Virus record (IMG/VR): IMGVR_UViG_3300003690_000271
Span: 1 to 23,250 of that record
Source: a virus
Length of the DNA: 23,250 nt
Direction: 5' to 3' (one strand)
In this document: in pieces, positions 1 through 18,745 of the stretch
How positions within the stretch are numbered: the stretch's first letter is position 1
How the letters are laid out: every line of letters starts with the position of its first letter
Translations under genes and position numbers: made by a program
Notes under the pieces: generated by a model
What the model saw: the letters and a program-made list of their open reading frames with translations, nothing else
Database searches by the model: none
What the model was told of the DNA's origin: nothing

Positions 1-3
1 GGG

Positions 4-120
4 TTACTTCTTCTTGGGTTTCTTATAGCTGACTTTCTTACCGGACTTCTTGGCTGCGGATTTGGCTTGGGCCTGGCCTTTTTTGGTATAGGCATAGTGT
101 CTGCTGCCGACTTTGGGCAT
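4..120 (-). CDS. Small Lys-rich basic protein, 38 aa
   Basis: Seen: on the minus strand an ATG at 120-118 opens 38 codons ending in TAA at 6-4. GGAGA lies just upstream of the start (GGAGAACACC then ATG). The protein begins MPKVGSRHYAYTKKGQAQ and then becomes a Lys/Ala/Ser tail ending in KKPKKK. Known: very small proteins starting M-P-x-V-G-x-x-x-[FY]-x-Y-T-x-K-G and ending in a Lys-rich tail recur in phage genomes, mostly without an assigned function. Inference: the charge suggests nucleic-acid binding or a virion-associated role. It is the only convincing minus-strand gene here and may be the promoter-proximal gene of a leftward module beyond the window edge. A plus-strand ORF over the same bases (67-249) is Gly/Trp-rich and looks like its shadow. 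Confidence 0.75.
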   Translation of the reverse strand: MPKVGSRHYAYTKKGQAQAKSAAKKSGKKVSYKKPKKK

Positions 121-285
121 GGTGTTCTCCAATCGGGGTATGGGGGGTTGGTTGTATTCGGCAAGGTATGCAATTGGGTTTGGGAAAGGAAGGGCTGGAT
201 CTTGGGGGAACGGTTGCTATTCTGTAGAGGATTGTGTAGAATGGGGTAGGGGGTCTATATATTATATGGAATAGGGGAAACTTGT
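121..285. promoter_or_regulatory. Divergent intergenic region with a candidate rightward promoter
   Basis: This stretch separates the leftward 38-residue gene from the rightward genes, so outward transcription in both directions is expected. An AT-rich tract at about 254-268 (TCTATATATTATATG) resembles a -10 element. TTGTGT at 232-237 is a weak -35 candidate with non-ideal spacing. An AGGGGA ribosome-binding site follows before the ATG at 286. No convincing leftward promoter consensus was found. The assignment rests on position and base composition only. Confidence 0.35.
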
Positions 286-438
286 ATGGGAGCTTCGAGG
301 GAGCGTGAAGATTCTTTCTGGGACGGTTGCTACCGGCAATGGCTTTACGGGCAACTGGTGTCTTATCAGATCAGAAGGTTATGCAAGGTGCTGCGTCGGA
401 TGGAGTATGTTTCTGTTTGGGAGGTCGAGGATGGCTGA
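286..438 (+). CDS. Small hypothetical protein, 50 aa, coupled to the ribbon-helix-helix gene
   Basis: Seen: ATG at 286 is preceded by AGGGGA about eight bases upstream and opens a 50-codon frame ending in TGA at 436-438. The product is rich in aromatic and charged residues, including FWDGCYRQWLYGQL followed by a basic stretch RRLCKVLRRMEY and an acidic end WEVEDG. Its last eight bases overlap the start of the next gene (ATGGCTGA), a layout typical of translational coupling. No family is recognised. The alternating Trp/Tyr/Arg helix and the coupling to a probable DNA-binding protein make a regulatory or toxin/antitoxin-like partner conceivable, but nothing in the sequence proves this. It could be a chance ORF. 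Confidence 0.45.
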   Translation: MGASREREDSFWDGCYRQWLYGQLVSYQIRRLCKVLRRMEYVSVWEVEDG

Positions 439-610
439 ACAGATTCATATCTTGTGTGATCTGGAGTTGAAGCAGGTGGCTACGGAGCAGGCCAAGACGG
501 ACGGTATATCTCTATCAGCCTGGATTTGTCGGTTGATGGAGGAAAGTCTTGACCGGCCTTCATTGTCGTCTCGGGTCAAGGCGTTGGAGGAAAAGGGGTT
601 GCCTATATAG
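431..610 (+). CDS. Ribbon-helix-helix (Arc/CopG-like) small protein, 59 aa
   Basis: Seen: the chosen start is ATG 431, with GGGAGG six bases upstream. A longer in-frame reading from 305 has no comparable ribosome-binding site. The protein starts MAEQIHILCDLELKQVATEQ and fits the ribbon-helix-helix plan: a short beta strand (EQIHILCDL, residues 3-11), helix A (about 12-25), a turn GISLS (26-30), then helix B (WICRLMEESLDR). Known: Arc/MetJ/CopG-type proteins bind DNA as dimers with the antiparallel strands in the major groove, and include phage repressors and antitoxins. Inference: a transcriptional regulator, perhaps acting on its own divergent promoter region. The residues after 42 (PSLSSRVKALEEKGLPI) form a short helical tail. 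The fold call is moderate, and the target is unknown. Confidence 0.65.
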   Translation: MAEQIHILCDLELKQVATEQAKTDGISLSAWICRLMEESLDRPSLSSRVKALEEKGLPI

Positions 611-772
611 AATGGGGTGACTATTGTTCACAGCGAAGGGTTATACTTCGGTGGAAAACCGTTCTGGGGAGAGCGGCCGATTGTCTGATCTTTCGTTTGG
701 TATAGAGGGGATTGCCGGTCACTTGTGGGGAGCAAGCCGGTAGTTCTCTCTTTTTTATAAGGGGAATGGAAT
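611..772 (+). other. Intergenic region, weak hairpin and weak promoter-like element
   Basis: No gene with good support lies here. A five-base-pair inverted repeat (CGAAG 634-638, CTTCG 646-650) and a T-rich run at 746-756 are present, but they are not adjacent and do not make a clear terminator. TGGTATAGA at about 699-707 resembles an extended -10 element without a good -35. A 30-codon GTG-started frame (651-743) is too short and unsupported to call. AAGGGGA at 759-765 serves the TTG start at 773. Confidence 0.3.
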
Positions 773-1552
773 TTGGCAGGTACCTTGCAAAGTCTTGGCC
801 GTATCGGCCAAGATCCACAGATGGCCAATCGGATTGTCCAGGCTTTGATTGAGTCTACCAGTGGCGGTGCTGCGCCTACGCCCAGCATTGATCCGCAACT
901 TTTACGACTGATTGCATCTGCTATGGGCCAAAGCCTGCCTGCTGACCGCATGGACTCGTTTCCTCCTGCCGGCTATCAACGCCAACCTCAACTGATGTCC
1001 CCCCTCGGTCTACCTGATGTGGATCGGGCTGGACTAACAAGGGATGCTTTTTTTGGAGCGGGGGAAGACGCCGTACGCGCTGAGATGGTTGCTGGTCCTG
1101 GCGGCATTCCTATTCGGGGCCTAAATCGGGCTGGCTTATCAGGTGGTAGAGTTCCAAACCTTCCTGACGCAAGATTGTTTGTAGAAAACGCCTTGAAGAA
1201 CGAATCCAGGCTCGCTACTACCCCAAAGGAAGCGGTGAGAGAGCAGTTTGAGGGTATGCGCGATAGACTTCTTGGGGGTGGGACAACCTTCAAGATACCG
1301 CCAGAAGTCAAAAATCTCGTTAAGGAGGAAGGCTATTTAGGCTTCGACACTGTTGGTGAGGTGGCTCAATCTATCCTCCAACACTTTGATTTCGCCCATA
1401 GATGGGAAATACCCTCCAAATTCGTTCCACAGTTAAAGAAATGGCGCGAGATGGTCTTAAGGGAAAACCCGGAAATCCTGGCGCGTGAGTTCAAGACCCG
1501 AAAGTCTATTATGAAGGGCAGCAAACGTTTTCCAGGCGTAGGTTCAGATTGA
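773..1552 (+). CDS. Hypothetical phage protein, 259 aa, with N-terminal LGRIGQDP peptide
   Basis: Seen: the frame has an in-frame TAA at 758-760 and its only plausible start is TTG 773, served by AAGGGGA. Residues 2-29 (AGTLQSLGRIGQDP, then QMANRIVQALIEST) match residues 57-84 of the next gene product at 16 of 28 positions. The middle is Gly/Pro-rich and probably disordered (about 30-130). The C-terminal part (about 140-250) is helical and basic, with FEGMRDRLLGGG, VKNLVKEEGYLGF and a closing KTRKSIMKGSKRFPG. No known family is recognised. Context: it lies between a regulator pair and the terminase block and is followed 32 bases later by its partial paralogue, so the two are probably co-transcribed. 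A virion-associated or assembly role is inferred from the shared peptide seen in other structural proteins here. Confidence 0.75.
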   Translation: MAGTLQSLGRIGQDPQMANRIVQALIESTSGGAAPTPSIDPQLLRLIASAMGQSLPADRMDSFPPAGYQRQPQLMSPLGLPDVDRAGLTRDAFFGAGEDAVRAEMVAGPGGIPIRGLNRAGLSGGRVPNLPDARLFVENALKNESRLATTPKEAVREQFEGMRDRLLGGGTTFKIPPEVKNLVKEEGYLGFDTVGEVAQSILQHFDFAHRWEIPSKFVPQLKKWREMVLRENPEILAREFKTRKSIMKGSKRFPGVGSD

Positions 1553-1584
1553 ATGACTGAATTCATTATGAGGGGTATTCCATA

Positions 1585-3897
1585 ATGGCCCGTAATCCAA
1601 CTGAAGACGTTCATGCGTTTGATACCGGCGGCTGGCGTAAATATGGCCATCTGACAGGTAAGCAGCGGCAGACCATCCGGCAGAAATTGTCGGAAGGCAC
1701 ATGGGATACCAGCGGCACCTGGGATCAGAACATGATGCCTGCTTCCCAGGCTTCCGGCACCATGTTCAATCTCGGTCGCGTCGGTCAAGATCCGGAGATG
1801 TCCAATCGCGTTGTTCAGTCCATGACCGGGTCAACTGCCGCGCCCTCGACGGCAGTCACGGCGCCAGATTTCTCCCTTGCCGCTATCGGTGCAAACACCG
1901 CTGGGGCTTTTCCAGCTGATTCGGGACTTACCGAGAGAGAGGGTACCTCGGGTGCGTCGGGGAGTTATACCGGCCCGGACGATATATACGGCTGGGAAGA
2001 TGGCGTTCGCGCTGGCACCGTAGACCGTCTTGACAATGGTGGTTCCTGGGTCTATCGGGATGGGATGGGAAATAATCTGGGTTCAGTCAACAAGTCTATA
2101 TCCAAGGCCGAACGCGAGGCCACGATGGGCCTGGACCTCGCGCTTGAACCGGCAATAGATCCTGAACCCCCTCCCTTCCCTGAACCCGATCCCTTGCCAG
2201 TGGGGATTGATCCTGGTCCGGAGTTGGGTCAGGATCTTGAGGGAGAAATGCCAGTTGGGGACGCTAATAGATTTACAGTTGAGAACCCTCCACCGCCAAT
2301 GGAATATACTGGCCCTAAAAGAGGTGAGCCGGGCTTTGTCGGCTATCCGTGGGGGGAGGACGAGCTAATTCAATATGAGTATGATGATCGTGAAGAAGAC
2401 GAGTTCCCTATTCAGCCTAACCAGTTTGACGATCCCCAACCCGGCGATCCCGATTATGACGAGTGGCTTGCCGGGCTTCCTGCTCGATGGGCATCGGGGG
2501 AGTTGGCGTATGGACATGGCGAGTGGGCGGAGGGGATGGATAAGACGACTCCATCAATATGGAACACTATGGTTGGACCTTATGCGCCCGAGGAGGAATT
2601 TGAGCGGGGAATGAGGGATGATCTTGGGGAACAGTTGGGGCAACAGCCAAGGGGGTTTTATTACGCGCTTGATGATACAGGACGCTTGAGGCGGTACACA
2701 ACAGAAGAAGGGGCAGAGCCGGGTCAAGATATGTCCGGAAGAGACTGGGCAGAACTGCATCCCGGAGCAGAACTGCCAGTCGGGGAACTTCCTGAGTTGC
2801 CCAGAGGAACGATGGAGACGATGCCGGGGGAGGCAGCGGAGCAGGAATGGCAGGAACTTCAGGAGTTCCTGGATTTACACGGGTATAAAGATCTTGATCC
2901 TTTCGAGCCATATCCGTTCAAACCGGGTGACCCCGGATATCATGCGGGAATGGAGAGGCTTTTTGATTTTCTCAGGACAACGCCGAGGGGTAGGGGGTCA
3001 CTTTCTGGATCGTTTGAAGACTTTTTCCGTGAGAGCGGATGGCACATTCCTCAAGAAGGTGAAATTGAGTTGGGCCAGGATCTTGAGGAAGAACCACCTC
3101 TCGAAGAACCGGTTGTTTCCCCCGTTGAAGAGATCGAGTTGGGTCAGGATCTGGAAGTTGATCTGGTAGGCACCGAACAGCCCCCGGTGATTGCTCCGGA
3201 TGGTACTGAACTGGTAGGGGGACTGCCGCTGGTAGACGCCTACCATGCGATGAAGGTTGGTGAGGGTCCAGTCCTGACGGAAGCTCAGATCTCCCAGCTT
3301 CCACCGGAATTACTGGTGGAAGCCCGCGCCTGGATGGCGGCAAATGTTGACGGACCAAGGCAAAAGGCCGTAGCGGGGCCAGTGGACGAGGTGGAGTTGG
3401 GCCAGGATCTGGAAGCTGATTTATCGGGTGAAGAGGTGGCGCCGCAGCCAGCAGCAAAGGGGTCGGCTGGCCTGGACAAGAGTCCAGTGTTCCAACGTGA
3501 AGACGATCCAGAGAGATTTGCTGTTCCCGGCAATACGTATTGGAAGGAAGGAAGGGAGTGGATTCGAGGGCTTCGCTTGGCCGAGCAACGGCGCATTGAC
3601 GCGCAGCAAATGAGAGAAGATTTCAATCGTATAGTTGATGAAGGAGAGGCAGCTCCACCACTTCAGTCTCGACCAGTGACTGGGCCAGATGCTTACTGGA
3701 GCGGCCCCTCTGGCTCCCCTCGGAGACCCTCTCAGAGACCCCACGAAACAGAACTTGATCAGCAAGCGGCTTGGAGAGTTTGGGAAGAGATGGGTGCTAT
3801 AGAGAGGGGTCAAAACTGGGGCACTACTAAATACCCTAATGGCGACTTTGGGTATTGGTACACGACTGAATGGCTTAGCCGCGTAGTACTTATGTGA
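1585..3897 (+). CDS. Large acidic Pro/Glu-rich repeat protein, 770 aa, unknown function
   Basis: Seen: ATG 1585 follows AGGGG. The N-terminus (about 1-56) is basic and Trp-containing, with a small repeat GTWDTSGTWD. Residues 57-84 match the N-terminus of the preceding protein. From about 190 it is acidic, Pro/Glu-rich and probably disordered. ELGQDLE occurs four times, at residues 213, 495, 518 and 604. A second looser repeat, [PR]G[DE]PxY/F, occurs as RGEPGF, PGDPDYD (codons at 2440) and PGDPGYH (codons at 2923). The C-terminus (about 640-770) regains aromatic and charged residues. No enzyme motif, signal peptide or membrane span was found. Known families: none recognised. Inference: a multivalent scaffold-like or virion protein with repeated binding peptides. 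Position next to packaging genes fits a structural role but does not prove it. Confidence 0.8.
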   Translation: MARNPTEDVHAFDTGGWRKYGHLTGKQRQTIRQKLSEGTWDTSGTWDQNMMPASQASGTMFNLGRVGQDPEMSNRVVQSMTGSTAAPSTAVTAPDFSLAAIGANTAGAFPADSGLTEREGTSGASGSYTGPDDIYGWEDGVRAGTVDRLDNGGSWVYRDGMGNNLGSVNKSISKAEREATMGLDLALEPAIDPEPPPFPEPDPLPVGIDPGPELGQDLEGEMPVGDANRFTVENPPPPMEYTGPKRGEPGFVGYPWGEDELIQYEYDDREEDEFPIQPNQFDDPQPGDPDYDEWLAGLPARWASGELAYGHGEWAEGMDKTTPSIWNTMVGPYAPEEEFERGMRDDLGEQLGQQPRGFYYALDDTGRLRRYTTEEGAEPGQDMSGRDWAELHPGAELPVGELPELPRGTMETMPGEAAEQEWQELQEFLDLHGYKDLDPFEPYPFKPGDPGYHAGMERLFDFLRTTPRGRGSLSGSFEDFFRESGWHIPQEGEIELGQDLEEEPPLEEPVVSPVEEIELGQDLEVDLVGTEQPPVIAPDGTELVGGLPLVDAYHAMKVGEGPVLTEAQISQLPPELLVEARAWMAANVDGPRQKAVAGPVDEVELGQDLEADLSGEEVAPQPAAKGSAGLDKSPVFQREDDPERFAVPGNTYWKEGREWIRGLRLAEQRRIDAQQMREDFNRIVDEGEAAPPLQSRPVTGPDAYWSGPSGSPRRPSQRPHETELDQQAAWRVWEEMGAIERGQNWGTTKYPNGDFGYWYTTEWLSRVVLM
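2221..3414 (+). repeat. Four dispersed 21-base repeats encoding ELGQDLE
   Basis: Copies are at 2221-2241, 3067-3087, 3136-3156 and 3394-3414. All encode ELGQDLE. At DNA level they differ only at one third-codon position (GGT/GGC) and in the last two codons (CTT GAG or CTG GAA). Conservation of the invariant codons, including third positions, is higher than peptide selection alone requires, suggesting recent duplication or gene conversion. The flanking residues are acidic but not conserved. Confidence 0.85.
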
Positions 3898-3978
3898 AGA
3901 CCTGCGTCCCAAAGAGGATCACCTAAGTTTACATGGTATACCCAGATAATTAACACCAGAGATTGAAACTCTGTTAAG
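3898..3978 (+). promoter_or_regulatory. Leader of the terminase block with small hairpin
   Basis: Eighty-one bases separate the 770-residue gene from TerS. They contain TTTACA (3928-3933), TGGTATACC (3934-3942, weakly like an extended -10), GATAAT (3945-3950) and an inverted repeat CAGAG/CTCTG (3957-3961, 3969-3973) just before the TerS start. Spacing between the TTTACA and GATAAT boxes is too short for a standard sigma-70 promoter, so a promoter here is only possible. No strong Shine-Dalgarno sequence precedes the ATG at 3979. Confidence 0.3.
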
Positions 3979-4749
3979 ATGCCTCGACAAGCTCCCAGAT
4001 CCAGATGCACCGACCAGCAGATGAAGGCCATTCATTACCTGGTGCTGGATCGTCATGCCAAGACGGATATGACCAAAAAGATTGCCCAGCTCGTTGGCTG
4101 CCAGCCGGTCACCGTCAGCCGCTGGCGCAAACTGGACTACTTCCGCTCGGAGTTTGATCGTCAGGTACGATTATACAGAGCGAACTTCGATGATGTCCCC
4201 CTGGCCGACCGCAAAGAACGGGTCAAAGCTCTGCAAGCCATCTATGAAGATCTGCAGGAACGCGACAAGGCCATGAAGTTGAAAGTGCTGATGGCCATAC
4301 GTCAGGAAGTGGGCGATGACAAGCAGGTCATCGAGCATCATATCTCCGGTGCCGTCGGTGTCAACCTCCCGCCCCGCGCTTCGTCCTACGAAGAGTGGAT
4401 CACCCAGAATACGGAGATGTACAAGGCCGTCGGGGAAGCGCCCAAGGTCGAGATCGAACCGATTCTCTCGGCAGAACCCGAAATCCCCCGCATTGAGACT
4501 CTCAATATGCGGAAAATGGGGCCGTCCACGCAGGAAACGGAAGATGGCATCCCTCTGTGGACAATTGACCAGTTCGGCCGGCCCGTTCTGCCCAACGGAT
4601 TCCAGGAACGAGTCGAAAAGGCCAAATCCTGGGAGCAGAAGGACGACGAGGCTGCGGAAAAGGAACGGCAGCGACTGATAAACGCCATGCGCTCAGTCCA
4701 GGAAGACGAAGCCATGGATCTGACCCGAAAAGAGGTTCCGATTGGCTAA
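3979..4749 (+). CDS. Terminase small subunit (DNA-recognition component), 256 aa
   Basis: Role: the small terminase recognises phage DNA and regulates the large ATPase/nuclease during genome packaging. Seen: residues about 32-56 form a helix-turn-helix, TKKIAQLVGCQPVTVSRWRK, followed by a basic helix. A charged helical region (about 70-115, ADRKERVKALQAIYEDLQERDKA) could mediate oligomerisation. The second half is Pro/Glu-rich and less structured, ending in a helix EKERQRLINAMRSVQEDEA. Known: this HTH-plus-helical-domain layout and the position just before TerL are typical of small terminases. The start has a poor ribosome-binding site; ATG at 4021 is an alternative but also lacks one, and starting there would leave the HTH intact. 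The end overlaps the next start by eight bases. The call combines HTH and synteny. Confidence 0.75.
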   Translation: MPRQAPRSRCTDQQMKAIHYLVLDRHAKTDMTKKIAQLVGCQPVTVSRWRKLDYFRSEFDRQVRLYRANFDDVPLADRKERVKALQAIYEDLQERDKAMKLKVLMAIRQEVGDDKQVIEHHISGAVGVNLPPRASSYEEWITQNTEMYKAVGEAPKVEIEPILSAEPEIPRIETLNMRKMGPSTQETEDGIPLWTIDQFGRPVLPNGFQERVEKAKSWEQKDDEAAEKERQRLINAMRSVQEDEAMDLTRKEVPIG

Positions 4750-4996
4750 AGTCAAGAAAGCAACCAAGAAAGTCCCGAAAAAGGAGGCCGTACCGGCCAA
4801 AACGGTGTTGGCAGCGACGGCACCCGTACCGCCAGAACCGCCAAAGCCCTCCAAGAAGGAACTGGCCCAGAAGGCGCTTGATACCCTCGGTGCAGCAACG
4901 CCTTCGGTGGGATCTGACGGGGAAGTGATTATCTGGCTCAAGGCAGGAGAGAACAAGATCATCGAGGACTGCCTGGTGGCGATTGTCAACAGTTGA
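4742..4996 (+). CDS. Small Lys/Ala/Pro-rich protein between TerS and TerL, 84 aa
   Basis: Seen: a TTG start at 4742, with AGAGG seven bases upstream, overlaps the TerS stop by eight bases. The first 40 residues are Lys/Ala/Pro-rich, resembling histone-H1-like tails (AKVKKATKKVPKKEAVPAKT). The rest looks like a small folded part with KELAQKALDTLG and a possible strand GEVIIWLKAGENKIIEDC. The frame ends 14 bases inside TerL. No family is recognised. A basic protein translated between the two terminase subunits could bind DNA or assist packaging, but that is inference from charge and position. Confidence 0.65.
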   Translation: MAKVKKATKKVPKKEAVPAKTVLAATAPVPPEPPKPSKKELAQKALDTLGAATPSVGSDGEVIIWLKAGENKIIEDCLVAIVNS

Positions 4997-6272
4997 ACTG
5001 GAAGAGGCAGTTGTCCCGACTCCCTGGCAGCCACAGCCGGGACCGCAGGAAAAGGCCATCCGCGCCTCGTTCGTGCCGGAACTTTTCTTTGGCGGCGCTC
5101 GGGGCGGCGGCAAAACCTCCTTTCTCATGGGAGATTTCGCCTCGGATGTACAGAAGTACGGATCGGTATGGCGCGGTGCCACCGGCACCGTCACCCTCCG
5201 ACTGCGTCACCTGGAGAGCGAGGCCGATGCCGACAACTACATGGGGCATCAGTACACCTACATCGCCTTCGATGAGTTGTGCAACTGGCCTAACCTCGGG
5301 GGCTACAACAAACTCAAAGCCTGCCTGCGCTCGACGGCCAAGATCGACAACCTGCGGGTCCGTGCCACCGGCAACCCCGGCGGTGTCGGCCATCAGGCGG
5401 TCAAGGAATACTTCATCGATGCCGGCGCTCCGGAAACGATCATCCAGGACGACAAGTCGGCCATTCCCCGCATGTGGATCAAGTCGCTTGTCACCGACAA
5501 CAAGATCCTGCTCGATGCGGACCCGCTCTATATCAAGCGACTGCAGTCCGTTGGCGATCCCGAGTTGGTACGGGCCTGGCTGGAAGGTGACTGGTCTGTC
5601 TCCCTCGGAGCCTATTTCACCAACTGGAATTCCAGACACTGTGTCATCCCCTCATTTGAAATTCCAGAGCATTGGCCCCTGTTCGGGGGCCTGGACTATG
5701 GCGAATCTTCGCCCACGTCATTTGGTCTTTACACCATCGATTACGACAGCCATGTCTACCGGCTCTGCGAATACTACCAGGCCGGCGCCACCGCCTCTAC
5801 ACATGCCTATGAGATTGATCGGATGATCGCGGCCAACCCGCATACCAACGGCCGCCGACCCCAGCAGATCTTTGCCGATCCCTCCATGTGGGTCAAGCGG
5901 AGATTGTCGGAAGTAGTCAACCAGTCGCCGGCCGATGTGTTTCTGCAGCAGGGCCTTTCCCTGACCAAGGCCAACAACGACCGCGTCACCGGCTGGCGGG
6001 TCATCAACGACATGCTGGCCCAGCGCAAGCTGCATTGCTTCGATGGCTGGAACGATAACCTCTGCCGCACGATACCCTCACTGCCCCGCTCCAAGAGCAA
6101 CCCCGAAGACCTCGACACCCACACCGAAGACCACGCCGCCGACGAGTTGCGTTACGCGGTGATGCACCTGTATCAGCCATCCCGCGCCATGCCCAGTCAG
6201 AATGCCAACCCGTTCTTTGGCAGCAACGTCCTCGACCAGCTGCCGGTCGCCAAGCAAAGGCGCATAGCATGA
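4983..6272 (+). CDS. terL: Terminase large subunit (ATPase/nuclease) with an apparent internal deletion, 429 aa
   Basis: Role: the motor that translocates DNA into the procapsid and cuts it. Seen: Walker A FGGARGGGKT (36-45), Walker B YTYIAFDE (91-98), coupling motif ATGNPGG (128-134), and nuclease acidic residues in GGLDYGE (D238), FADPS (D299) and EDHAADELRY (D383/D387). Known: relatives normally have roughly 35-45 further residues between the WRG that follows Walker A and the strand leading to Walker B, including an F/V-R-R-T segment. Here YGSVWRG (59-65) runs straight into ATGTVTLRLRHLE. A perfect hairpin sits at that junction. The TTG start (4983) is the only one that keeps the PQPGPQ...FFGGARGGGKT N-terminus; it overlaps the previous gene by 14 bases, so translation is probably coupled. 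The stop overlaps the portal start as ATGA. Confidence 0.9.
   Translation: MSTVELEEAVVPTPWQPQPGPQEKAIRASFVPELFFGGARGGGKTSFLMGDFASDVQKYGSVWRGATGTVTLRLRHLESEADADNYMGHQYTYIAFDELCNWPNLGGYNKLKACLRSTAKIDNLRVRATGNPGGVGHQAVKEYFIDAGAPETIIQDDKSAIPRMWIKSLVTDNKILLDADPLYIKRLQSVGDPELVRAWLEGDWSVSLGAYFTNWNSRHCVIPSFEIPEHWPLFGGLDYGESSPTSFGLYTIDYDSHVYRLCEYYQAGATASTHAYEIDRMIAANPHTNGRRPQQIFADPSMWVKRRLSEVVNQSPADVFLQQGLSLTKANNDRVTGWRVINDMLAQRKLHCFDGWNDNLCRTIPSLPRSKSNPEDLDTHTEDHAADELRYAVMHLYQPSRAMPSQNANPFFGSNVLDQLPVAKQRRIA
5175..5189 (+). repeat. Perfect inverted repeat at the TerL gap junction
   Basis: GGTGCC (5175-5180), ACC, GGCACC (5184-5189) form a six-base-pair hairpin inside terL. It lies exactly where the protein jumps from WRG to the Walker-B-proximal strand. 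Such a palindrome is compatible with a deletion or assembly-collapse point, but short GC-rich inverted repeats also arise by chance. Confidence 0.6.
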
Positions 6273-8362
6273 TCCAAGAAAAAATAGATTTCTGGCAAAA
6301 CACGTTTATCAATACGGAAAAGTTCATGGAGGAGCATCACCGTCGCTGGCGCCGGCTGCATCGACAGTACCGGCTCGACTTTGACGACGTGGTGTCGCTC
6401 GATTCCAGCAAGATCCGCAAGATCTCGCAGTTCTATCCGCTGGCCCGACAGATCATCGCCTCCATCGTCTTCCAGAACCCGCGCATCTTCTTCCGTGTAT
6501 CAGCCCCGCAGAAGGCTTTTCAAGCGGAAATCATGCAGCGCACCATCAACAACGCGCTGGAGTTGTCCGACGCCAAGGCGCATGTGCAGCAGATGGTGTT
6601 CGATGCCCTGTTCGCCTACCGTGGCATCCTCAAGACCGTGGTCAACCCTCGCGGCGATGAAGATCTGATGCCGCCGTATGTGGCCAACGATACGTTGCAG
6701 AACGGCATGGTCGCCACCCTGCGCGTGTCCCCGTTCAACTTCTTTGGCGATATCGTCACGCCCAACCATGTGTTCGGTCACCAACGCTACTGTTATGAGA
6801 AAATGCTGGTGCCGATGGAGTTCGTAAAAGCCGACGACCGCCTGCAGCACAAGGGCGATATCAAGCCCCTGACCTCCGACGACCGGGAAGACCTCATGCT
6901 CGGAGACTGGGAGTCGGATCAGGAGGGCGAAGACGCTGAACGCAAGGCCATGGAAGAGTCACGCATTCTCGGAGAGTACGTGCTGCTGCGCGAGGTGCAT
7001 GACCGCATCCACAAAAAACAGTACATCTTCGCGCAGGGCGTTAAGAAGCCGGTGCTGGAGATCGATCACCCGTTCCTCGCCGGGGAAACCCGCATGGCGC
7101 CGGACCCGCTTACCGGCGAGATGGTCGCCACCGACGACTTCACCCCCAGAGGGGGCTTTCTGGTGATGAACGGAACGCCCTATACCTCCCTGACCTACGA
7201 CAATACCCCGGAAGAGTTCTACGGCCTGCCGGTCATGGCTTACGCCGAGGACACCCAGGCCGGCATTGTCGAGTCGCTGACTCGCCGCGCCGACGGCGTC
7301 AAGCGCAACTCGCGTACGATCCTGGGCCGCAAGGGAGAGCAGGCCAACAATCCGGATATCGGTGACGATATCGACAAGGCCCAGGACGGCAAAATCATCT
7401 GGGTGGACGACGTACACAACTCCTTCTCGGAGATGACGCAGGCCACGCCCCCGGCCGATCAACTGGGCCTGGAGTCGGACTACCGCAACTACCAGGAGCA
7501 GATCCTCAATGTCTCGTCGCTGACCTCTGGTGGCGGTCCTCGACGAACCGCCACGCAGGCGGCACTGGAAGCCTCGTTCGGCCAGTTGAACCGCGACTGG
7601 ATGCAGGGCAAGGTGGCCCAGGTGTACAAGGAGCTGGCCTACAATTACGCCAGGATCATCAGCGACGTGCGCTATGAGCCGAAAGCCTTCCTGGTCAATG
7701 TTGCCGAGTCAGAGAACGACCCGGTATTCGAGGCGGTGCGGGGTGATATGATGGCGGCTCGCTTTACCGTCGAGGTCGAGGCGGCGTCGATGAAGCCGAT
7801 GTTTGAGGAAATCGAGAAGGAAGATGCCCTCGCGCTGGCAACCTGGCTGATGCAGTTCCCGCAGGTGCCCCGGAACGAAGTGCTGCGCCATGTGCTGCAG
7901 AGCTTCCGGGTGCCTAATATGGAGAAGTTCATCGGGGACGCGGCTCGAATCGACGCCCAGCGGGCTGCTCAGTATGAGAATCTGCTGCTGATGAGCGGCC
8001 AGCAGGTGAGGGTGCATCCGGGTGAGCAGCATACGACCCACGCCGAGGTGCATAAGAAACTGCCGGAAGATCCGAAGTTCCAGCAGTTGGCCCAGGCCAA
8101 CCAGATGCTGGCCCAGCAGATCATGCAAACCATACAGCAGCATATGCAGGAGCATCAGGAAGCCTTCCAGGCCCAGGCCGGAGGGGGTGGCGGTCAGCCC
8201 CAGCCCACTGGCAAGATCGAGGGTATCGGTGGCGATAGCAGGGGCACCGGTTCTCCGTTGAGCCAGGTGCAACAGACCGTCGGCTCGATCAACTCGGCCG
8301 TACGCTCGAACGCCCAGAGAATCTCACAGCCCGGTGCTGTGGTTGACAGGAATCAGAACTGA
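6269..8362 (+). CDS. Portal protein, 697 aa
   Basis: Role: the dodecameric portal forms the DNA channel at one capsid vertex and docks the terminase and later the adaptor. Seen: it starts at ATG 6269 in an ATGA overlap with terL. The N-terminal helix-rich region includes KIRKISQFYPLARQIIASIV and FQNPRIFFRVSAP (about 45-80), typical of the entry to portal wing/clip domains. A mid-region (about 330-440) contains AGIVESLTRRADGVKRNSRT and GPRRTATQAALEAS, resembling the long helix and stem of portals. The last 100 residues are Gln-rich (QANQMLAQQIMQTIQQHMQE) then Gly/Pro-rich, consistent with a barrel-like or flexible C-terminus. Length fits large podovirus-type portals. Position directly after terL strongly supports the call. 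Confidence 0.85.
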   Translation: MIQEKIDFWQNTFINTEKFMEEHHRRWRRLHRQYRLDFDDVVSLDSSKIRKISQFYPLARQIIASIVFQNPRIFFRVSAPQKAFQAEIMQRTINNALELSDAKAHVQQMVFDALFAYRGILKTVVNPRGDEDLMPPYVANDTLQNGMVATLRVSPFNFFGDIVTPNHVFGHQRYCYEKMLVPMEFVKADDRLQHKGDIKPLTSDDREDLMLGDWESDQEGEDAERKAMEESRILGEYVLLREVHDRIHKKQYIFAQGVKKPVLEIDHPFLAGETRMAPDPLTGEMVATDDFTPRGGFLVMNGTPYTSLTYDNTPEEFYGLPVMAYAEDTQAGIVESLTRRADGVKRNSRTILGRKGEQANNPDIGDDIDKAQDGKIIWVDDVHNSFSEMTQATPPADQLGLESDYRNYQEQILNVSSLTSGGGPRRTATQAALEASFGQLNRDWMQGKVAQVYKELAYNYARIISDVRYEPKAFLVNVAESENDPVFEAVRGDMMAARFTVEVEAASMKPMFEEIEKEDALALATWLMQFPQVPRNEVLRHVLQSFRVPNMEKFIGDAARIDAQRAAQYENLLLMSGQQVRVHPGEQHTTHAEVHKKLPEDPKFQQLAQANQMLAQQIMQTIQQHMQEHQEAFQAQAGGGGGQPQPTGKIEGIGGDSRGTGSPLSQVQQTVGSINSAVRSNAQRISQPGAVVDRNQN

Positions 8363-8373
8363 ATGAGAGAGAT

Positions 8374-8973
8374 TTGAAGGTATTTCTGCGAATCCCCACC
8401 GCCGACGGTATTGACAGGGAGTTGACGCGCTGGCTGGTGTGGTTTGCCAGAGAAATGCCTGATGCAGACATTGACATCCACTGCTCCTGCTGGGGCGTGG
8501 TCGAGAACAGGAACCAGATATGCCAACAATTTCTGCACAGCGACTGTACCCACCTGTGGATGGTCGATGCGGATACGGTACCGCCGAAGAACCTGAATTT
8601 GCTGGAGCATGCCGACGAATTTCCCTGTCTCAACGGCATCTACCAGCATCTGACGATGGAGGGACTGGTGTGGGACACCTGGTTCAGAACGCCAGACAAC
8701 AGCTACGCGCCGATCCCCCAGCGACGCTGGCCCAAAGAGCGCCTGTTCAACGTCGATGCTGTGGGCTGTGGCTGTATGGTGCTGCAAAGAGAGCTGGTCG
8801 AGGCGATTCAAGAGCCTCGATTTGAGATGGGTGACGGCAAGGGAGAAGACTTCCACTTCTGTGAGCGCGTTGCCGAGGCGGGATACAAGGTGATGGTTGA
8901 CAGGGACTATCGATGTGACCATCAGAAGGACGTGAGCCTGCGGCTCTTGTCCCGCATAACGAAGGGCATCTGA
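8374..8973 (+). CDS. GT-A type glycosyltransferase-like protein, 199 aa
   Basis: Role: transfer of a sugar from a nucleotide-activated donor; the acceptor is unknown. Seen: a TTG start with a GA-rich ribosome-binding site (GAGAGAG). The fold signature is present: ENRNQICQQFL before HLWMVDADTVPP, whose D65-A-D67 matches the metal-binding DxD motif. GCGCMVLQREL (131-141) follows, then GEDFHFCERVAEAGYKV (157-173), which resembles the E-D catalytic/acceptor region of family-2-like enzymes. A late CDH (181-183) could complete metal binding. Known: small GT-A proteins are sometimes found in phage head operons and may modify virion proteins or be structural remnants. Context: it sits between portal and a zinc-ribbon gene. 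Family-level confidence is good; function is open. Confidence 0.75.
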   Translation: MKVFLRIPTADGIDRELTRWLVWFAREMPDADIDIHCSCWGVVENRNQICQQFLHSDCTHLWMVDADTVPPKNLNLLEHADEFPCLNGIYQHLTMEGLVWDTWFRTPDNSYAPIPQRRWPKERLFNVDAVGCGCMVLQRELVEAIQEPRFEMGDGKGEDFHFCERVAEAGYKVMVDRDYRCDHQKDVSLRLLSRITKGI

Positions 8974-8974
8974 C

Positions 8975-9337
8975 ATGCCTCGAATGGAGGACTACGAATG
9001 TTCTACTTGCGGTTTCGTAGAAGTTGATGTTTACTTTTCATTAAGGAGTGAGGTTACGCCTTGCCGTCCGTGCGTTGAGTGCGGCAGCGAGGCCAACAGG
9101 GTGTTTGCCCACCCCAAACAGAACTTCATCCATATGACGCATTCGTCCATGTATGGGAAGTTCGAGCCGGGGCTGGGCGTTGTGGTCGAGAATTACGGCC
9201 ACAAGCAGCGCCTGATGAGGGAACTGGATGTGCAGGAATCGTCTGATCCTACGGGCGGTTCCAGGTGCTATCAGAAATCTGATCCCGGACCTTCCTCCAC
9301 ATTGCCAAGCTGGGTCAGTGACCCGCACGGCGAATAA
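8975..9337 (+). CDS. Zinc-ribbon (FmdB-like) small protein, 120 aa
   Basis: Seen: ATG 8975 lies one base after the glycosyltransferase stop. The N-terminus has MPRMEDYECSTCG (Cys9 and Cys12) and then CRPCVECGSEANRVF (Cys30, Cys33, Cys36). This is the two-knuckle CxxC arrangement of a zinc ribbon, with the Y-x-C-x-x-C-G start common in FmdB-type putative regulators and in small phage proteins. Residues 50-80 are His/Met-rich (NFIHMTHSSMYGKFEPGLG), and the C-terminus is polar. A second ATG at 8984 would also preserve the ribbon. Function is unknown. The position between portal and scaffold suggests a late-expressed accessory or assembly protein. Confidence 0.7.
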   Translation: MPRMEDYECSTCGFVEVDVYFSLRSEVTPCRPCVECGSEANRVFAHPKQNFIHMTHSSMYGKFEPGLGVVVENYGHKQRLMRELDVQESSDPTGGSRCYQKSDPGPSSTLPSWVSDPHGE

Positions 9338-9349
9338 GGACAGAATAAG

Positions 9350-10246
9350 ATGACTGAAGCCGTCCAAATGGACTCTTCTGAAGATAGTGGAACGACCGAA
9401 GAAACAGCCGACAGTGAAGTGATCGATCTGGGGGCCGACCTTGAGTCCCCGAGCGAAGCACCGACCATTGAAGGCTCTGTTTCATCGGATTCTACTTCTG
9501 CAAGGAGAGCGACCACAGCGGGCGCACCAGACCGACCAGCAAGCATCGACATCGATGCTGACCTGGAGTCTATTCCCGAAGCATTAAGGCCAATGGCCCG
9601 GCAACTGAAGGGTTCCTATACCCAGAAGAGCCAGGAAGTGGCCACTCAGCGACGGCAGAACGAGACTCTGCAGCAACGCCTGCAGTTGGCGACGTTGCAG
9701 AACCAGCAGAACAATCTGAGTGCGCGTGTGGATGCTGCCTCTCCGGAGGAAGATCCTTTCGCAGCAGTTCGTGCCCGACTCGGCCCCGACGAGCAAGGCG
9801 CCCTCGATATCATGCGCGAGGTTGTCAAGACCGACGTGGGTCAGAGAGTGGAAACGCAGGGACAACAGGTAGAGCAGTTGACGAACGCGGTTCGCCAGCT
9901 CGCTGTGCATATTGTCCAGCAGTCCACGCAGGCACAGAACACCGCTGCCCAGGACGCTCGTCGGCAATACCCGAATATCGACCAGTATCAGGCGCAGGTA
10001 AACGCCCTGACCGCTGTGCCGAATCCGGCGACGAGAAAGAACTACACGCCCGCTGAAGCGTACGAGTTGCTCACCGGTATTTCTGGCCAGAAGTCTGCAC
10101 AATTACAGGCTGGCCAGAGGAAAGTCCGGCGCAACGCGGCTGGTAATGCCTCGTCTACTCCCTCTGTTGCTGCTGATAATGGCTCGGGTGCTTTATCCGA
10201 AACAGAGCTTGCCTCAAAGCTGGCAGCACTGGGTTTGAAGGCGTAG
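9350..10246 (+). CDS. Probable scaffolding protein, 298 aa
   Basis: Role (inferred): guides capsid-shell assembly and is lost before or during packaging. Seen: it lies immediately upstream of the major capsid gene. The N-terminal 60 residues are acidic and Ser/Thr-rich. A long Gln-rich helical section (about 75-200: KSQEVATQRRQNETLQQRLQ, then VETQGQQVEQLTNAVRQL) predicts coiled coil. The end is a helix SETELASKLAALGLKA (about 283-298) after a flexible basic linker; scaffolds commonly bind coat protein through C-terminal helices. It contains two motifs, VIDLGADLES (24-33) and SIDIDADLES (65-74), which echo the ELGQDLE repeats of the 770-residue protein. AAGGA lies just before the ATG. The call rests on composition and synteny, not a sequence signature. 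Confidence 0.7.
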   Translation: MTEAVQMDSSEDSGTTEETADSEVIDLGADLESPSEAPTIEGSVSSDSTSARRATTAGAPDRPASIDIDADLESIPEALRPMARQLKGSYTQKSQEVATQRRQNETLQQRLQLATLQNQQNNLSARVDAASPEEDPFAAVRARLGPDEQGALDIMREVVKTDVGQRVETQGQQVEQLTNAVRQLAVHIVQQSTQAQNTAAQDARRQYPNIDQYQAQVNALTAVPNPATRKNYTPAEAYELLTGISGQKSAQLQAGQRKVRRNAAGNASSTPSVAADNGSGALSETELASKLAALGLKA

Positions 10247-10264
10247 CTCTACAACGCCAACAAA

Positions 10265-10280
10265 GGGAGCGATTGCTCCC
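10265..10280 (+). promoter_or_regulatory. Hairpin upstream of the major capsid gene
   Basis: GGGAGC-GATT-GCTCCC is a perfect six-base-pair stem with a four-base loop in the 53-base gap between scaffold and capsid genes. No T-run follows, so it is unlikely to terminate transcription. It ends 19 bases before the capsid start and just upstream of the AGGGG ribosome-binding site. A role in transcript stability or processing is possible. Confidence 0.5.
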
Positions 10281-10299
10281 ATAGACAGGGGTTCCAATC

Positions 10300-11298
10300 A
10301 TGGCTGCTGCAACCACCAGTGAAACCTGGGACGCGGCTTGGACATTGACGATGCGGTCGCATCGGAAGCGGCTGACGGATAATATCTCCGACAGCTATCC
10401 GACGACAGATCGTCTCAAGCGTTCGGGTGTCATGGAAGTTGAAACCGGTGGCAAGGAGATCCAGGAAGATCTGATGTACGGTCTTGGATCGTCCGAGTGG
10501 TTCGACGGTTACGACGTATTGTCCACCAACGCGAACGACGGCATCACAGCCGCGTTCTATCAGTTCCGCTACAACGCCGTCCCAGTGGTTATTTCTGACA
10601 CTGAAGACGACGAGTCCCGTAAGTCTGGATCGGTCAAACTGATTACGGCCAAGGCCAAGCAGGCCATGACCAAGTCGTTTGATACGATTAATGCTTCGAT
10701 CCATAGCGCCCAGTCCGGTAAGTCGATGATTGGCCTGCAGGACATTTGTGCAGAGTCGTCCGGCACAACGCTGGGTGGCATTTCGCAGACCGCCAATACG
10801 TGGTGGGACAACAAGCGCGGCGATTTCACTGCTGGTACGGGTGAAATGCTGGCCACGTATACCAATTTCCTGACCAAGATCGGTGATCAGTACACCGGCA
10901 TTCTGGCCATGGGCCAGATGTGGAATGCGGTTTCTGAGGGTAATGACAAACCCACCCTTCTCATTGCTTCGCATACCCATTACGGGAACTACGAGGCCGT
11001 GTTTGAAGGCACAGGCCATACCCGCTTTACTGGCGCGGGGAAGGCAGATCTTGGTGTCACTGGCGATGTCACGTTCCGTGGCGCACCGCTGATTGCTGAT
11101 CGGGATTGTGTCACTGACAGTATGTATTTCCTCAACACCAAGTATCTGAAGTTGAAGGTGCAGGCTGGCCGCAACTTCTCGAAGACCCCGTTCCAGCGTC
11201 CGAGCAATCAGCTTGCCCGTGCTGCGTTCGTGGTATTTGGTGGCCAGTTGGTCACCAACAATCGTCGTCGTCAGGGTCTCTTGTACGACCTGGCATAA
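10300..11298 (+). CDS. Major capsid protein, 332 aa
   Basis: Role: forms the icosahedral shell. Seen: ATG 10300 is preceded by AGGGG. The protein begins MAAATTSETWDAAWTLTMRS and has features of phage coat proteins: an early helical N-arm, a YQFRYNAVPVVIS strand region (about 87-99), a spine-helix-like stretch VKLITAKAKQAMTKSFDTIN, a segment with Gly/Thr turns around GIQ-like SGKSMIGLQDI, and a C-terminal P-domain-like VTFRGAPLIADRDCVTDSMYFLN strand that is very typical of capsid proteins ending in an axial domain. Length is within the usual range for HK97-fold coats. It follows the scaffold and precedes a decoration gene. Codons are more T-rich than in the terminase genes, as often seen for highly expressed genes. 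Confidence 0.88.
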   Translation: MAAATTSETWDAAWTLTMRSHRKRLTDNISDSYPTTDRLKRSGVMEVETGGKEIQEDLMYGLGSSEWFDGYDVLSTNANDGITAAFYQFRYNAVPVVISDTEDDESRKSGSVKLITAKAKQAMTKSFDTINASIHSAQSGKSMIGLQDICAESSGTTLGGISQTANTWWDNKRGDFTAGTGEMLATYTNFLTKIGDQYTGILAMGQMWNAVSEGNDKPTLLIASHTHYGNYEAVFEGTGHTRFTGAGKADLGVTGDVTFRGAPLIADRDCVTDSMYFLNTKYLKLKVQAGRNFSKTPFQRPSNQLARAAFVVFGGQLVTNNRRRQGLLYDLA

Positions 11299-11305
11299 AC
11301 CCTTG

Positions 11306-11328
11306 CCCCCAAGCCAATGGGGGTTCTT
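11306..11328 (+). terminator. Weak hairpin after the major capsid gene
   Basis: CCCCCA (11306-11311) pairs with TGGGGG (11318-11323) around a six-base loop, eight bases after the capsid stop. It is followed by TTCTT. The stem is short and the T-run interrupted, so it is at best a partial terminator or an attenuator that raises capsid over downstream transcript. Confidence 0.45.
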
Positions 11329-11353
11329 ACCCTGCCCATAGGGGAAAGGATGT

Positions 11354-15553: not shown

Positions 15554-18500
15554 ATGCCCCCACCTATTAGTCCCTTCTTTCTTTTTAAAGATCCTTCTGA
15601 CATTCAATGGTCTGGTACCCAGAGGCTTACGGGCAACCAGTTGCGTGGGTTTGGGGATTTTGGGTTCGATCCGAACATCTCTATTGGCGACATTATTCCC
15701 GGCGCCTCTCAACCTGGTACTGCCTATCAGGCGCCCGGCACTCGGGGCATTTTCCAAGACGGCATCCAGATCGGCTCTACCAGCGAGAGGAACGTAATTG
15801 AGACACCTGGTGGACCCGGTGGCGAGGGATTCTCTCTCTTCACGTCTACTGCTGCAAACGGTCAGGCTGTGGATGCCTTGCCGGAAACAGTTGTGAGTGT
15901 TGCCGATGACGAAGGCGCTTTGCCGGCAGCAAAAAGTGCTGGTGTCCTGCCTGTTGACTATGAATTGGACACTGCTGATGACGATGATGCTGCTGCCGCT
16001 GATGATGGTACCGTCTTTACACCGACCACTGGAATAGGGGCACAGTGGGACCCGGATTGGTTTGAAGATCAGGCGCCGTGGCAAAGCCCAGTAGACTATC
16101 TCTATAACCCCTGGTTTACAGACCTGGATCTGCGAAGTTTCACCGAACACCATTTCGGCAGCAGAGAATATTTCGCCCTGTATGGGGGCCGGCCTGGCAG
16201 AGCCTTCCGAAACTTGGGTACTGATCCTGTAGTGCAGATGCTCGTTCAAAGGTGGAAGTACCCTGATAGGGATGTACCTCGTCCTTCCGCTAAACAGATG
16301 CAGGAGCTTACCACCAAGTTTATGCAGGAAATGCTCCGCATTAGAGGCGAGTCTGAGAATATAGAGACAGAGATTGTTCAATCGGTTACCGGCAGCACCC
16401 CAGCCGGCCACCAAGACTCCATATTTATGACCAATCTCTATGGGATGCCTCCTGAGCTGCTCAATATGTTTGCCGAGTTGCCAGGGACCATTGGTACGGA
16501 CATCCTTGCCAATCTCGGCGGTCTGGGTGCAGATATTCTCGGGGGTCTGGACATCCCTGAACTTGCCAGTGACATCGGCACGGGTATTCGTGGCGCTATT
16601 GATCCTCTGACCGGCGCTGACTTTGGCCTTGATGTCATCGAGCGGGACATTTTTGGCGAAGGCGGCTTGGAGGAGAAACTCCGCGGCCTCGGCCTTGGGG
16701 AGCTTGCCGCGGCCATCGGTACACAGGGTGGCCGTCTTAATGAGTTGGCAAATCAACTGCGATTAGGGATGAAATTCCCTACTGGATTTGTTGAAACAGC
16801 AGGGACTTTGGCAGATCAACTGGGCGGTATGACTGACGACCTTGGGGTGCTGGGCGCATCTCCTGTGCCCAACGCGTTATTCAGGAACCTGCAGAGGTCG
16901 CAGGGCTTGTTGGATGATATTATCGGCGGCTCCTTTGGCGGTGAGGGATATGGCTTCCCGGCACAACGGACTGGCTTGGCAAAGGCGCTCGGTCAGGGCG
17001 AAGACCTGGAGACGCTGCTGGGTGGATTGCCTGCACCGCCTGATCTGAGCCTTACAGGCGGTCCATTAGATCAGGCCCGACTGCTCAACGAGCTGTTTAC
17101 TCTCGGGGAAGGTCAACTTGAAGGTCTTGGCGAGGACGTTGGCGCCCTGCGGCGTGGGGCCGTAACAGATCTTAGTGACGACTTGGAAAGACTGGGGCTT
17201 GGAGGCTTAGAAGGAAAGATTGGATCATTCTTGGGAGAAGGAGGCACCTTCAAAAACCTTGAAGGCTTACTGGGTGGCCTCGGCCTCGGGATAGACGATC
17301 TGCTACCGAGTCGGGAGCTGCTACGTGAACAGCTCGCGTATCGTGCCCCCAGATTGACGGCAGCTCAGGTACTGCCGGATGAGGGGATTCTGGATGAGGC
17401 GTGGACAGCGATGAGGCCGGAGCAATTGACGACAGGCGATCTGCTGCCGGATGAGGGGATTCTGGATGCAGCGTGGACGGGGATGCGGCCTGTCCCGCTG
17501 ACGTTGGACGACCTGCTGCCGACCGAGGGCCAACTGACTACAGCGTGGGATGAGCGTAAGCCCGTCGGATTGGGCGTGGAGGGCCTGCTGCCGGGGAAGG
17601 ATGAGTTGGATAGAGCGTGGGCGCTGCGGAGACCTACCAGGTTGACAGCAGGGGACTTGCTGCCTGGGGACTTGACGGAACGGTGGGATGAGATGCGGCC
17701 CTCCCCGCTGACGATAGACGACCTGGGCCTTGATCCGCTCAATGCCCTCCTTGATCGCCTGGATCTTGGTGGTCTTGATCCGCTTGGTCGCCTTGAAGAT
17801 TCCTCTGCGTATGTGGGTCCGCTGAACGATCTACTGGCTGGCATTCAGGCTGGTGATTTTGGTCGATTGCCAGATCTGTTGGCAAATGCCGGTGTCGATA
17901 TCAACTTGCCAGGTCTGGATCGTATCGAAACTCTCTTAGGCCCTCTTAGCCTCCTGCCGGGCATGGGAGGGCAAGTACAAGGTTTGGCAGATACGATGCC
18001 CGGCGAGTTAAGCAAGATCATCGAACTTCTTGGCCCAGAGGGTTTGGGTAGGGGTGGTGGAGTCACAGATATCTCCGGCCTTGAGGACTCGCTGGCCGAC
18101 ATTCTGGCTCGACTGGACACCGCCGACGGCCTACAGCCTTCCGGCGCAGGTGGCGTATTTGAGGAGTTGCTTGATGCCATTCGAGGCGACTTTGACCGAC
18201 CGACCACAGCAGAAGAGTTGCGGGCCGATCCGATCACTGCCTCGATTCTCGCAGATCAGGAAGAGCAAGATCGCCTGCGCGAACGGGAGGACCGGGAGCT
18301 GCTGCAGAGGTTTGGCGTCCTGCGTGGTGGTCAGACTATCGATCTGGCCAATCTACGAGCCGACGACCAGAGCCGTGCGGTACTGGCAGCGTTGGGACAG
18401 GGCGCCGAGAGGGCCGAAGCTCGCTTCACCGGAGCCATTGGAGCCGGCACCGACATCGCCGGCCTGCTGGAGCGCAGGGAACTGGCACGGGCAGGGGAAC

Positions 18501-18745
18501 TGGGGTGGATGGACGGTGAACGCACCCTTGCTGGTCAGGATCAGGATGCGGCACTGCTGTCCGCTATCTTTACCATGTTGCAGAGCGAGTTTAATCCACT
18601 TACGACGGCAGACCAGCAGCAGGTTGACCTGGTTCGGTCGTTACTGCCTCTGCTTCCTCCAGATATGCGTCAAACATTGGAAGAAATGTTTGAGGGGGCT
18701 GGTTTTGCAACTCCTAACACCAGGAATAGAGATCGCTGGAGATAA
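15554..18745 (+). CDS. Large Leu/Gly-rich structural protein with 24-residue tandem repeats, 1063 aa
   Basis: Seen: AGGAG precedes ATG 15554, two bases after the nozzle stop. Residues about 1-190 are low-complexity and acidic. LGTDPVVQMLVQRW (221-234) and IVQSVTGST (274-282) echo peptides in the 259- and 770-residue proteins. From about 300 to 590 the sequence is a run of Leu/Gly-rich amphipathic helices (LGGLGADILGGLDIPELASD and similar). Five 24-residue repeats occupy 601-718. The C-terminal part (about 890-1050) is charged helix and then SAIFTMLQSEFNP. No transmembrane span or catalytic motif is evident. No family is recognised. In podovirus-like gene order this position holds internal/ejected virion proteins, so an ejected or core-stack protein is the working inference. 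Confidence 0.75.
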   Translation: MPPPISPFFLFKDPSDIQWSGTQRLTGNQLRGFGDFGFDPNISIGDIIPGASQPGTAYQAPGTRGIFQDGIQIGSTSERNVIETPGGPGGEGFSLFTSTAANGQAVDALPETVVSVADDEGALPAAKSAGVLPVDYELDTADDDDAAAADDGTVFTPTTGIGAQWDPDWFEDQAPWQSPVDYLYNPWFTDLDLRSFTEHHFGSREYFALYGGRPGRAFRNLGTDPVVQMLVQRWKYPDRDVPRPSAKQMQELTTKFMQEMLRIRGESENIETEIVQSVTGSTPAGHQDSIFMTNLYGMPPELLNMFAELPGTIGTDILANLGGLGADILGGLDIPELASDIGTGIRGAIDPLTGADFGLDVIERDIFGEGGLEEKLRGLGLGELAAAIGTQGGRLNELANQLRLGMKFPTGFVETAGTLADQLGGMTDDLGVLGASPVPNALFRNLQRSQGLLDDIIGGSFGGEGYGFPAQRTGLAKALGQGEDLETLLGGLPAPPDLSLTGGPLDQARLLNELFTLGEGQLEGLGEDVGALRRGAVTDLSDDLERLGLGGLEGKIGSFLGEGGTFKNLEGLLGGLGLGIDDLLPSRELLREQLAYRAPRLTAAQVLPDEGILDEAWTAMRPEQLTTGDLLPDEGILDAAWTGMRPVPLTLDDLLPTEGQLTTAWDERKPVGLGVEGLLPGKDELDRAWALRRPTRLTAGDLLPGDLTERWDEMRPSPLTIDDLGLDPLNALLDRLDLGGLDPLGRLEDSSAYVGPLNDLLAGIQAGDFGRLPDLLANAGVDINLPGLDRIETLLGPLSLLPGMGGQVQGLADTMPGELSKIIELLGPEGLGRGGGVTDISGLEDSLADILARLDTADGLQPSGAGGVFEELLDAIRGDFDRPTTAEELRADPITASILADQEEQDRLREREDRELLQRFGVLRGGQTIDLANLRADDQSRAVLAALGQGAERAEARFTGAIGAGTDIAGLLERRELARAGELGWMDGERTLAGQDQDAALLSAIFTMLQSEFNPLTTADQQQVDLVRSLLPLLPPDMRQTLEEMFEGAGFATPNTRNRDRWR
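17354..17707 (+). repeat. Five tandem 72-base (24-residue) repeats
   Basis: Units start at 17354, 17426, 17498, 17570 and 17642; the fifth is 66 bases. A partial sixth begins at 17708. Consensus: L-T-x-x-D-L-L-P-x-E-G-x-L-D-x-A-W-x-x-M-R-P-x-x. Units 1 and 2 share CTGCCGGATGAGGGGATTCT exactly, so duplication is recent. Later units have diverged in sequence while keeping Leu, Pro, Trp and Arg-Pro positions. Confidence 0.9.

Follow-up and report, generated by a model that had tools for sequence, protein, structure and literature searches.

The window, by which we mean the whole stretch of 23,250 nucleotides analysed here (positions 1 to 23,250 of the virus record IMGVR_UViG_3300003690_000271), contains a small terminase-like gene followed by a large terminase gene, terL, and the features of these genes are collected in Table 1. 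Between terS and terL, and overlapping both, sits an 84-aa ORF rich in Lys, Pro and Ala (4742-4996) for which the search of PHROG gave no match. Further downstream the ORF at 10300-11298 matches phrog_9953 as a major head protein (E 3.5e-47), so both the packaging region and the head region of a phage are represented in the window.

Table 1. Features of the terminase region, in window coordinates.
Feature	Coordinates	Strand	Remarks
terS-like small terminase ORF, intact, 5' of terL	3979..4749	+	phrog_2538, E 1.3e-5
terL, 429 aa	4983..6272	+	TTG start; ATPase domain, then RNase H-like nuclease domain; bears the deletion
Walker A GARGGGKT, residues 38-45, K44	5094..5117	+	
Perfect 6-bp hairpin GGTGCC-ACC-GGCACC, spanning the junction	5175..5189	+	probably incidental
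Deletion junction, between G65 and A66	5176..5177	+	123 bp (41 codons) absent, in frame, relative to all close relatives
Walker B YIAFDEL, residues 93-99, D97/E98	5259..5279	+	
Coupling motif ATGNPGG, residues 128-134	5364..5384	+	intact

The identity of the protein is well supported by profile searches. It is matched by the PHROG terminase large subunit family phrog_2 over residues 14-401 (E 3.2e-33), which runs across both the ATPase and the nuclease domain, and by phrog_979, also a terminase large subunit family (E 1.5e-14). In each case the score is lower than that of L001, a full-length relative found in a viral contig (116.5 against 138.6 bits for phrog_2 and 54.6 against 78.3 bits for phrog_979). 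PF03237 gives 20.3 bits for the window TerL, under the 22-bit cut-off, compared with 28.6 bits for L001 and for a second full-length relative, L002, while PF17289 stays under its cut-off for both the window TerL (18.2 bits) and L001 (17.9 bits). A first-pass annotation made from the sequence had described all the motifs outside the Walker A to Walker B interval as intact and in frame, and this holds. Walker A, Walker B with its catalytic glutamate and the coupling motif are all present, with K44, E98, N131, P132, G133 and G134 (window numbering) invariant in alignment A1, and R116 is kept as well. The RNase H-like nuclease half retains its acidic residues, D238, D299, D383 and D387, which are in frame and likewise invariant in A1.

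The unusual property of this TerL is the spacing of its ATPase motifs. The first-pass annotation had given about 52 residues between K44 of Walker A and D97 of Walker B, and the count is indeed 52. That annotation also estimated that about 40 residues were absent and put the junction somewhere in 5160-5230; comparison with close relatives places it between bases 5176 and 5177, with a one-base uncertainty that stems from a base common to both ends, and gives the number as 41. Five viral contigs (L001, L002, L003, L004 and L057) extend past the junction in both directions, and all five carry exactly 123 extra bases at this point, encoding the 41 residues. They are 94-98% identical to the window at the nucleotide level in the main blocks flanking the junction and are colinear with it up to the junction. 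Another contig, L005, starts within the segment and keeps the 83 bases that it reaches. In the left blocks that they share, L002 and L057 do not differ in identity or in number of mismatches, and they may represent one phage, thus the five contigs are not fully independent. The full-length TerL of L001-L004 has 470 aa, and these contigs resemble the window in their terS-terL order where it is covered and in all other motifs, and differ from it in having the 41 residues. Against G002, the longest of the close relatives, no indel other than the deletion occurs in 3965-11350, with gapless alignments over 3965-5177, 5177-11043 and 11044-11350. Outside this stretch, in 1-3965 and beyond 12350, there are indels and diverged blocks, which is expected for faster-evolving genes. 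These alignments show a single deletion, clean and in frame.

The deleted form appears to be confined to this contig. The junction peptide, searched as a degenerate pattern, was found in 0 other viral contigs, in a search from which records of the window's own or very near genomes were perhaps excluded. The left-flank haplotype of the window, which is marked by one private base, had 0 matches in the viral contigs, and the sole match to the right-flank pattern was the contig of L001, which is full-length. The record itself, a 23 kb fragment, has one TerL match only and no second TerL.

The wider family gives the same picture. From the Walker A lysine to the Walker B acid there are 86-97 residues in all 152 scorable relatives, compared with 53 in the window, and the segment that has been lost measures 37-46 residues over these 152 rows (39 or 41 in most). 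The alignment to TerL relatives that the first-pass annotation had proposed as a check therefore returned no short form. The relatives were gathered by a protein search of viral contigs, from which the best 80 of 198 relative-encoding stretches were taken, and about half of the 152 rows came from a scan with patterns for Walker A and the C-terminal nuclease motif, so that short forms could have surfaced. At least 7 of the rows are contigs that were fetched twice. A scan of genome contigs gave 8 loci, all distant (25-40% identity), and four of these are in the count while four weak ones were excluded. We also left out sequences with stops (L022, L055 and L127), those with no Walker A (L115, L116 and L145) and partial matches (L005, L010, L046, L047, L050 and L051). 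In both L022 and L127 there is one stop only, and it precedes the conserved start of the match. L055, a TerL relative at 1785-3109 of its contig, has 13 stops in the match frame and thus probably contains frameshift errors or is a broken gene. Among GenBank phages 661 records match the TerL by protein at less than 60% identity and stand outside the Walker spacing count; none of the GenBank phages matched at the DNA level. A literature search, which was not exhaustive, showed no report of such a TerL deletion among the papers listed.

The deleted part is conserved and belongs to the core of the ATPase domain. In L001 numbering it comprises residues 66-106, which form an edge strand, a helix and the first half of a beta-hairpin. 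R69 is invariant both in alignment A2 and in 152 of 152 rows, and L75 is conserved in 98% of them, so the window TerL has neither the spacing nor the arginine common to its family. The annotation had expected an R-R-T motif and a strand-helix pair in the missing segment. The motif does occur in more distant relatives, but the close ones have R-R-S in its place. The strand-helix pair is recovered in the AlphaFold model of L001 (pLDDT 85.4, pTM 0.74), which has strands at 65-69, 94-96, 101-106 and 109-117 and a helix at 72-89, with R69 terminating the first strand after Walker A. Modelling of the ATPase domain, a further check suggested by the annotation, thus gives L001 four strands in the interval from Walker A to Walker B and predicts none there in the window TerL, where strand 33-37 is followed next by 93-96. 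The model of the window TerL scores lower (pLDDT 82.0, pTM 0.55, with residues 66-68 below 50), and AlphaFold has limited reliability on deletion variants. According to a review (PMC7617512), the ASCE ATPases are defined by an additional beta-strand that separates Walker A from Walker B, and this strand is missing from the window TerL in the predicted model, which is not a solved structure.

Comparison to solved terminases can help to place the lost segment relative to the DNA. Among solved structures the D6E large terminase (PDB 5OE8-5OEE) is the best match, both in profile comparison (E 1.8e-15) and in fold. Unlike the window TerL it has the Walker A-B segment, including the tunnel loop L1, whose R101 is an expected DNA contact according to PMC5727402. 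We took the D6E chain numbers to be the numbers of that paper plus 3, by our own count from matching the Walker B glutamates. A profile alignment on this numbering puts R101 at L001 residue 99, within the lost segment, whereas loop L2 (K123 of D6E) is kept in the window TerL. In the structural comparisons, the ATPase domain of the P74-26 large terminase (PDB 4ZNL, chain 4znl_B) shares its fold with the full-length model of L001, to which 216 residues align at Z 19.9 and rmsd 3.0. With the window model 174 residues align, 42 fewer, at Z 13.4 and rmsd 2.9, a drop that approximates the number of residues removed. The P22 nuclease domain (4dkw_A) is unchanged, with Z 19.6, rmsd 2.6 and 171 aligned residues for the window model and Z 19.4 for the full-length one. 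The D6E structure 5oe8_C gives a tie (Z 22.7 with 342 aligned for the window model, Z 22.5 with 386 aligned for the full-length model), and the rmsd is about 15 for both models because the two domains are differently placed. The Foldseek matches listed for the full-length model include the ATPase domains of P74-26 and T4 on their own, and these are absent among the 50 matches listed for the window model. Both domains do align to the window model by VIA, and the Foldseek absence is no evidence.

The substitutions in and around terL bear on the age of the deletion. Bases private to the window were scored within 3965-9269 at the 5299 positions that allowed comparison with three or more relatives, and 70 of them were found. 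All 12 private substitutions in terL are synonymous, while 4 of 16 change an amino acid in terS on its 5' side, as do 5 of 23 in ORF 6269-8362, which lies 3' of terL in the portal position and has no profile match. The two parts of terL together differ from L001 by 19 synonymous changes and 1 non-synonymous change. The gene has thus not decayed, and the deletion would have to be young, artefactual or harmless. Substitutions alone do not pick among these three.

Taken together, we consider it very probable that the window TerL is the product of a recent deletion in an otherwise ordinary TerL, that this deletion causes loss of function, and that it comes from a defective genome or from a junction made in vitro. 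An ancestral TerL of 470 residues, like that of L001-L004, would have lost 123 bp in a single blunt in-frame event. The product would retain the P-loop, Walker B, the coupling motif, the lid and the nuclease. It would be without beta-2, which bears the invariant arginine, and without alpha-2, and of the beta-hairpin close to the DNA-tunnel loop L1 it would miss the first strand and the turn. Such a shortened protein would probably be unable to couple ATP to the gripping of DNA, and so could not package on its own. The outcome would be either a defective minority genome that needs full-length TerL in trans, or is dead, or else a chimeric junction from amplification or library preparation. Some observations speak against loss of function. 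The frame is kept, for which the chance is one in three, the rest of terL is undecayed, as a working short protein would show too, and the terminase fold persists in the remainder of the window model.

Between the two origins of the junction we find no preference; they are equally possible, each with a little less than an even chance of being correct. One is a true deletion carried by a minority or defective phage genome, which would be packaged in trans by the full-length TerL of co-infecting relatives or be near to loss. The annotation had named deletion with complementation among its options, and the retention of the 123 bases in every contig that crosses the junction supports the deletion itself. 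The ends of the deletion share 0-1 base, as measured in five relatives, which would be hard to produce by k-mer overlap, and a molecule or read bearing the junction therefore probably existed. Relatives that could supply the full-length protein are there at 94-98% identity. The review PMC7617512 notes that as many as 3 inactive subunits are tolerated by the T4 motor, so that one dead subunit would not have to disable a mixed ring immediately. What weighs against a true deletion is that the allele was not observed a second time in the viral contigs searched. The same confinement to one contig would be expected of the other origin, in which the polymerase jumped while the whole genome or the library was being amplified. 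Two sites 123 bp apart would have been joined in this way and the contig built on the product, with the phage itself intact. A terL without decay would also be consistent with such an in vitro chimera. Technical errors may have left a trace in the comparison set as well, since L055 is the one sequence with many stops among the 158 translated relatives and may be such an error. However, in the one measured MDA set, described in PMC1855051, direct-orientation joins of less than 10 kb made up 11 of 475 chimeras, and at least 2 complementary bases were present in 90.9% of such direct joins, against the 0-1 here. By these figures the junction would be no typical MDA chimera. Chimeric joining is also disfavored by the 20 of 20 window-G002 alignments being in one orientation.

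A functional minimal TerL, which the annotation had offered as an ATPase core not seen before, is very unlikely. Here the short core would fold and package DNA, and the role of beta-2 and loop L1 would be taken over by a partner protein or by what is left of the hairpin strand. The preserved reading frame, the purely synonymous private changes, the retention of Walker A, Walker B, the coupling motif, R116 and the nuclease residues, and the preserved rest of the fold in the model could all be read in this way. Against it, none of the 152 relatives is short, the invariant R69 is gone, the model lacks the strand that defines the ASCE class (PMC7617512), and loop L1 is lost according to the profile alignment and PMC5727402. 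Least probable of all is a repeat collapse, the usual sense of the assembly collapse that the annotation had named, in which the assembler merged two repeat copies flanking the segment; the 123 bp do fall within the 100-135 bp that the annotation expected at the junction, but in L001 and L002 the two ends are not matched by any direct repeat, and ends that share 0-1 base in five relatives are not those of a repeat collapse.

Relocation of the segment was rejected, as blastn-short and tblastn gave only chance-level matches to the 41 residues elsewhere in the window. The hairpin at 5175-5189, which the annotation had pointed out, is real. Most relatives already have its inner four pairs in their right flank, and the window contains 59 perfect 6-bp hairpins (simulated mean 36.6, range 26-51), so we regard it as unremarkable and reject it as the cause of the deletion.

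The recent deletion that we favor has a practical side, as a single contig with a clean in-frame deletion can pass for a novel minimal motor, and a brief look at its relatives exposes the lost core segment. If a TerL without the class-defining strand does package alone, this strand, the invariant arginine and loop L1 would not be essential for packaging. Should the allele prove to be common in the reads and to yield intact phage, it would be a direct test of which parts of the ATPase sheet, and which DNA-gripping loop, are dispensable. That a TerL without the class-defining strand, the invariant arginine and L1 does package, or works alongside full-length subunits from a co-infecting relative within a mixed ring, seems to us highly improbable.

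Other parts of the window show features of their own. In the head gene block, ORF 8374-8973 is glycosyltransferase-like (PF13641, 20 bits with a cut-off of 27), and 5 of its 10 private substitutions alter an amino acid, compared to 0 of 12 in terL. Upstream of terS, the ORF at 1585-3897 encodes an acidic, proline-rich protein of 770 aa with recurring ELGQDLE-like units. Its region aligns to the close relative G002 only in parts (1737-2252 at 89% and 3061-3471 at 94%), which points to fast evolution of this ORF. A 72-bp tandem repeat of 2.1 copies lies at 17372-17521 within a 1063-aa ORF (15554-18745), and several overlapping alignments to G002 suggest that there are further diverged copies of it.
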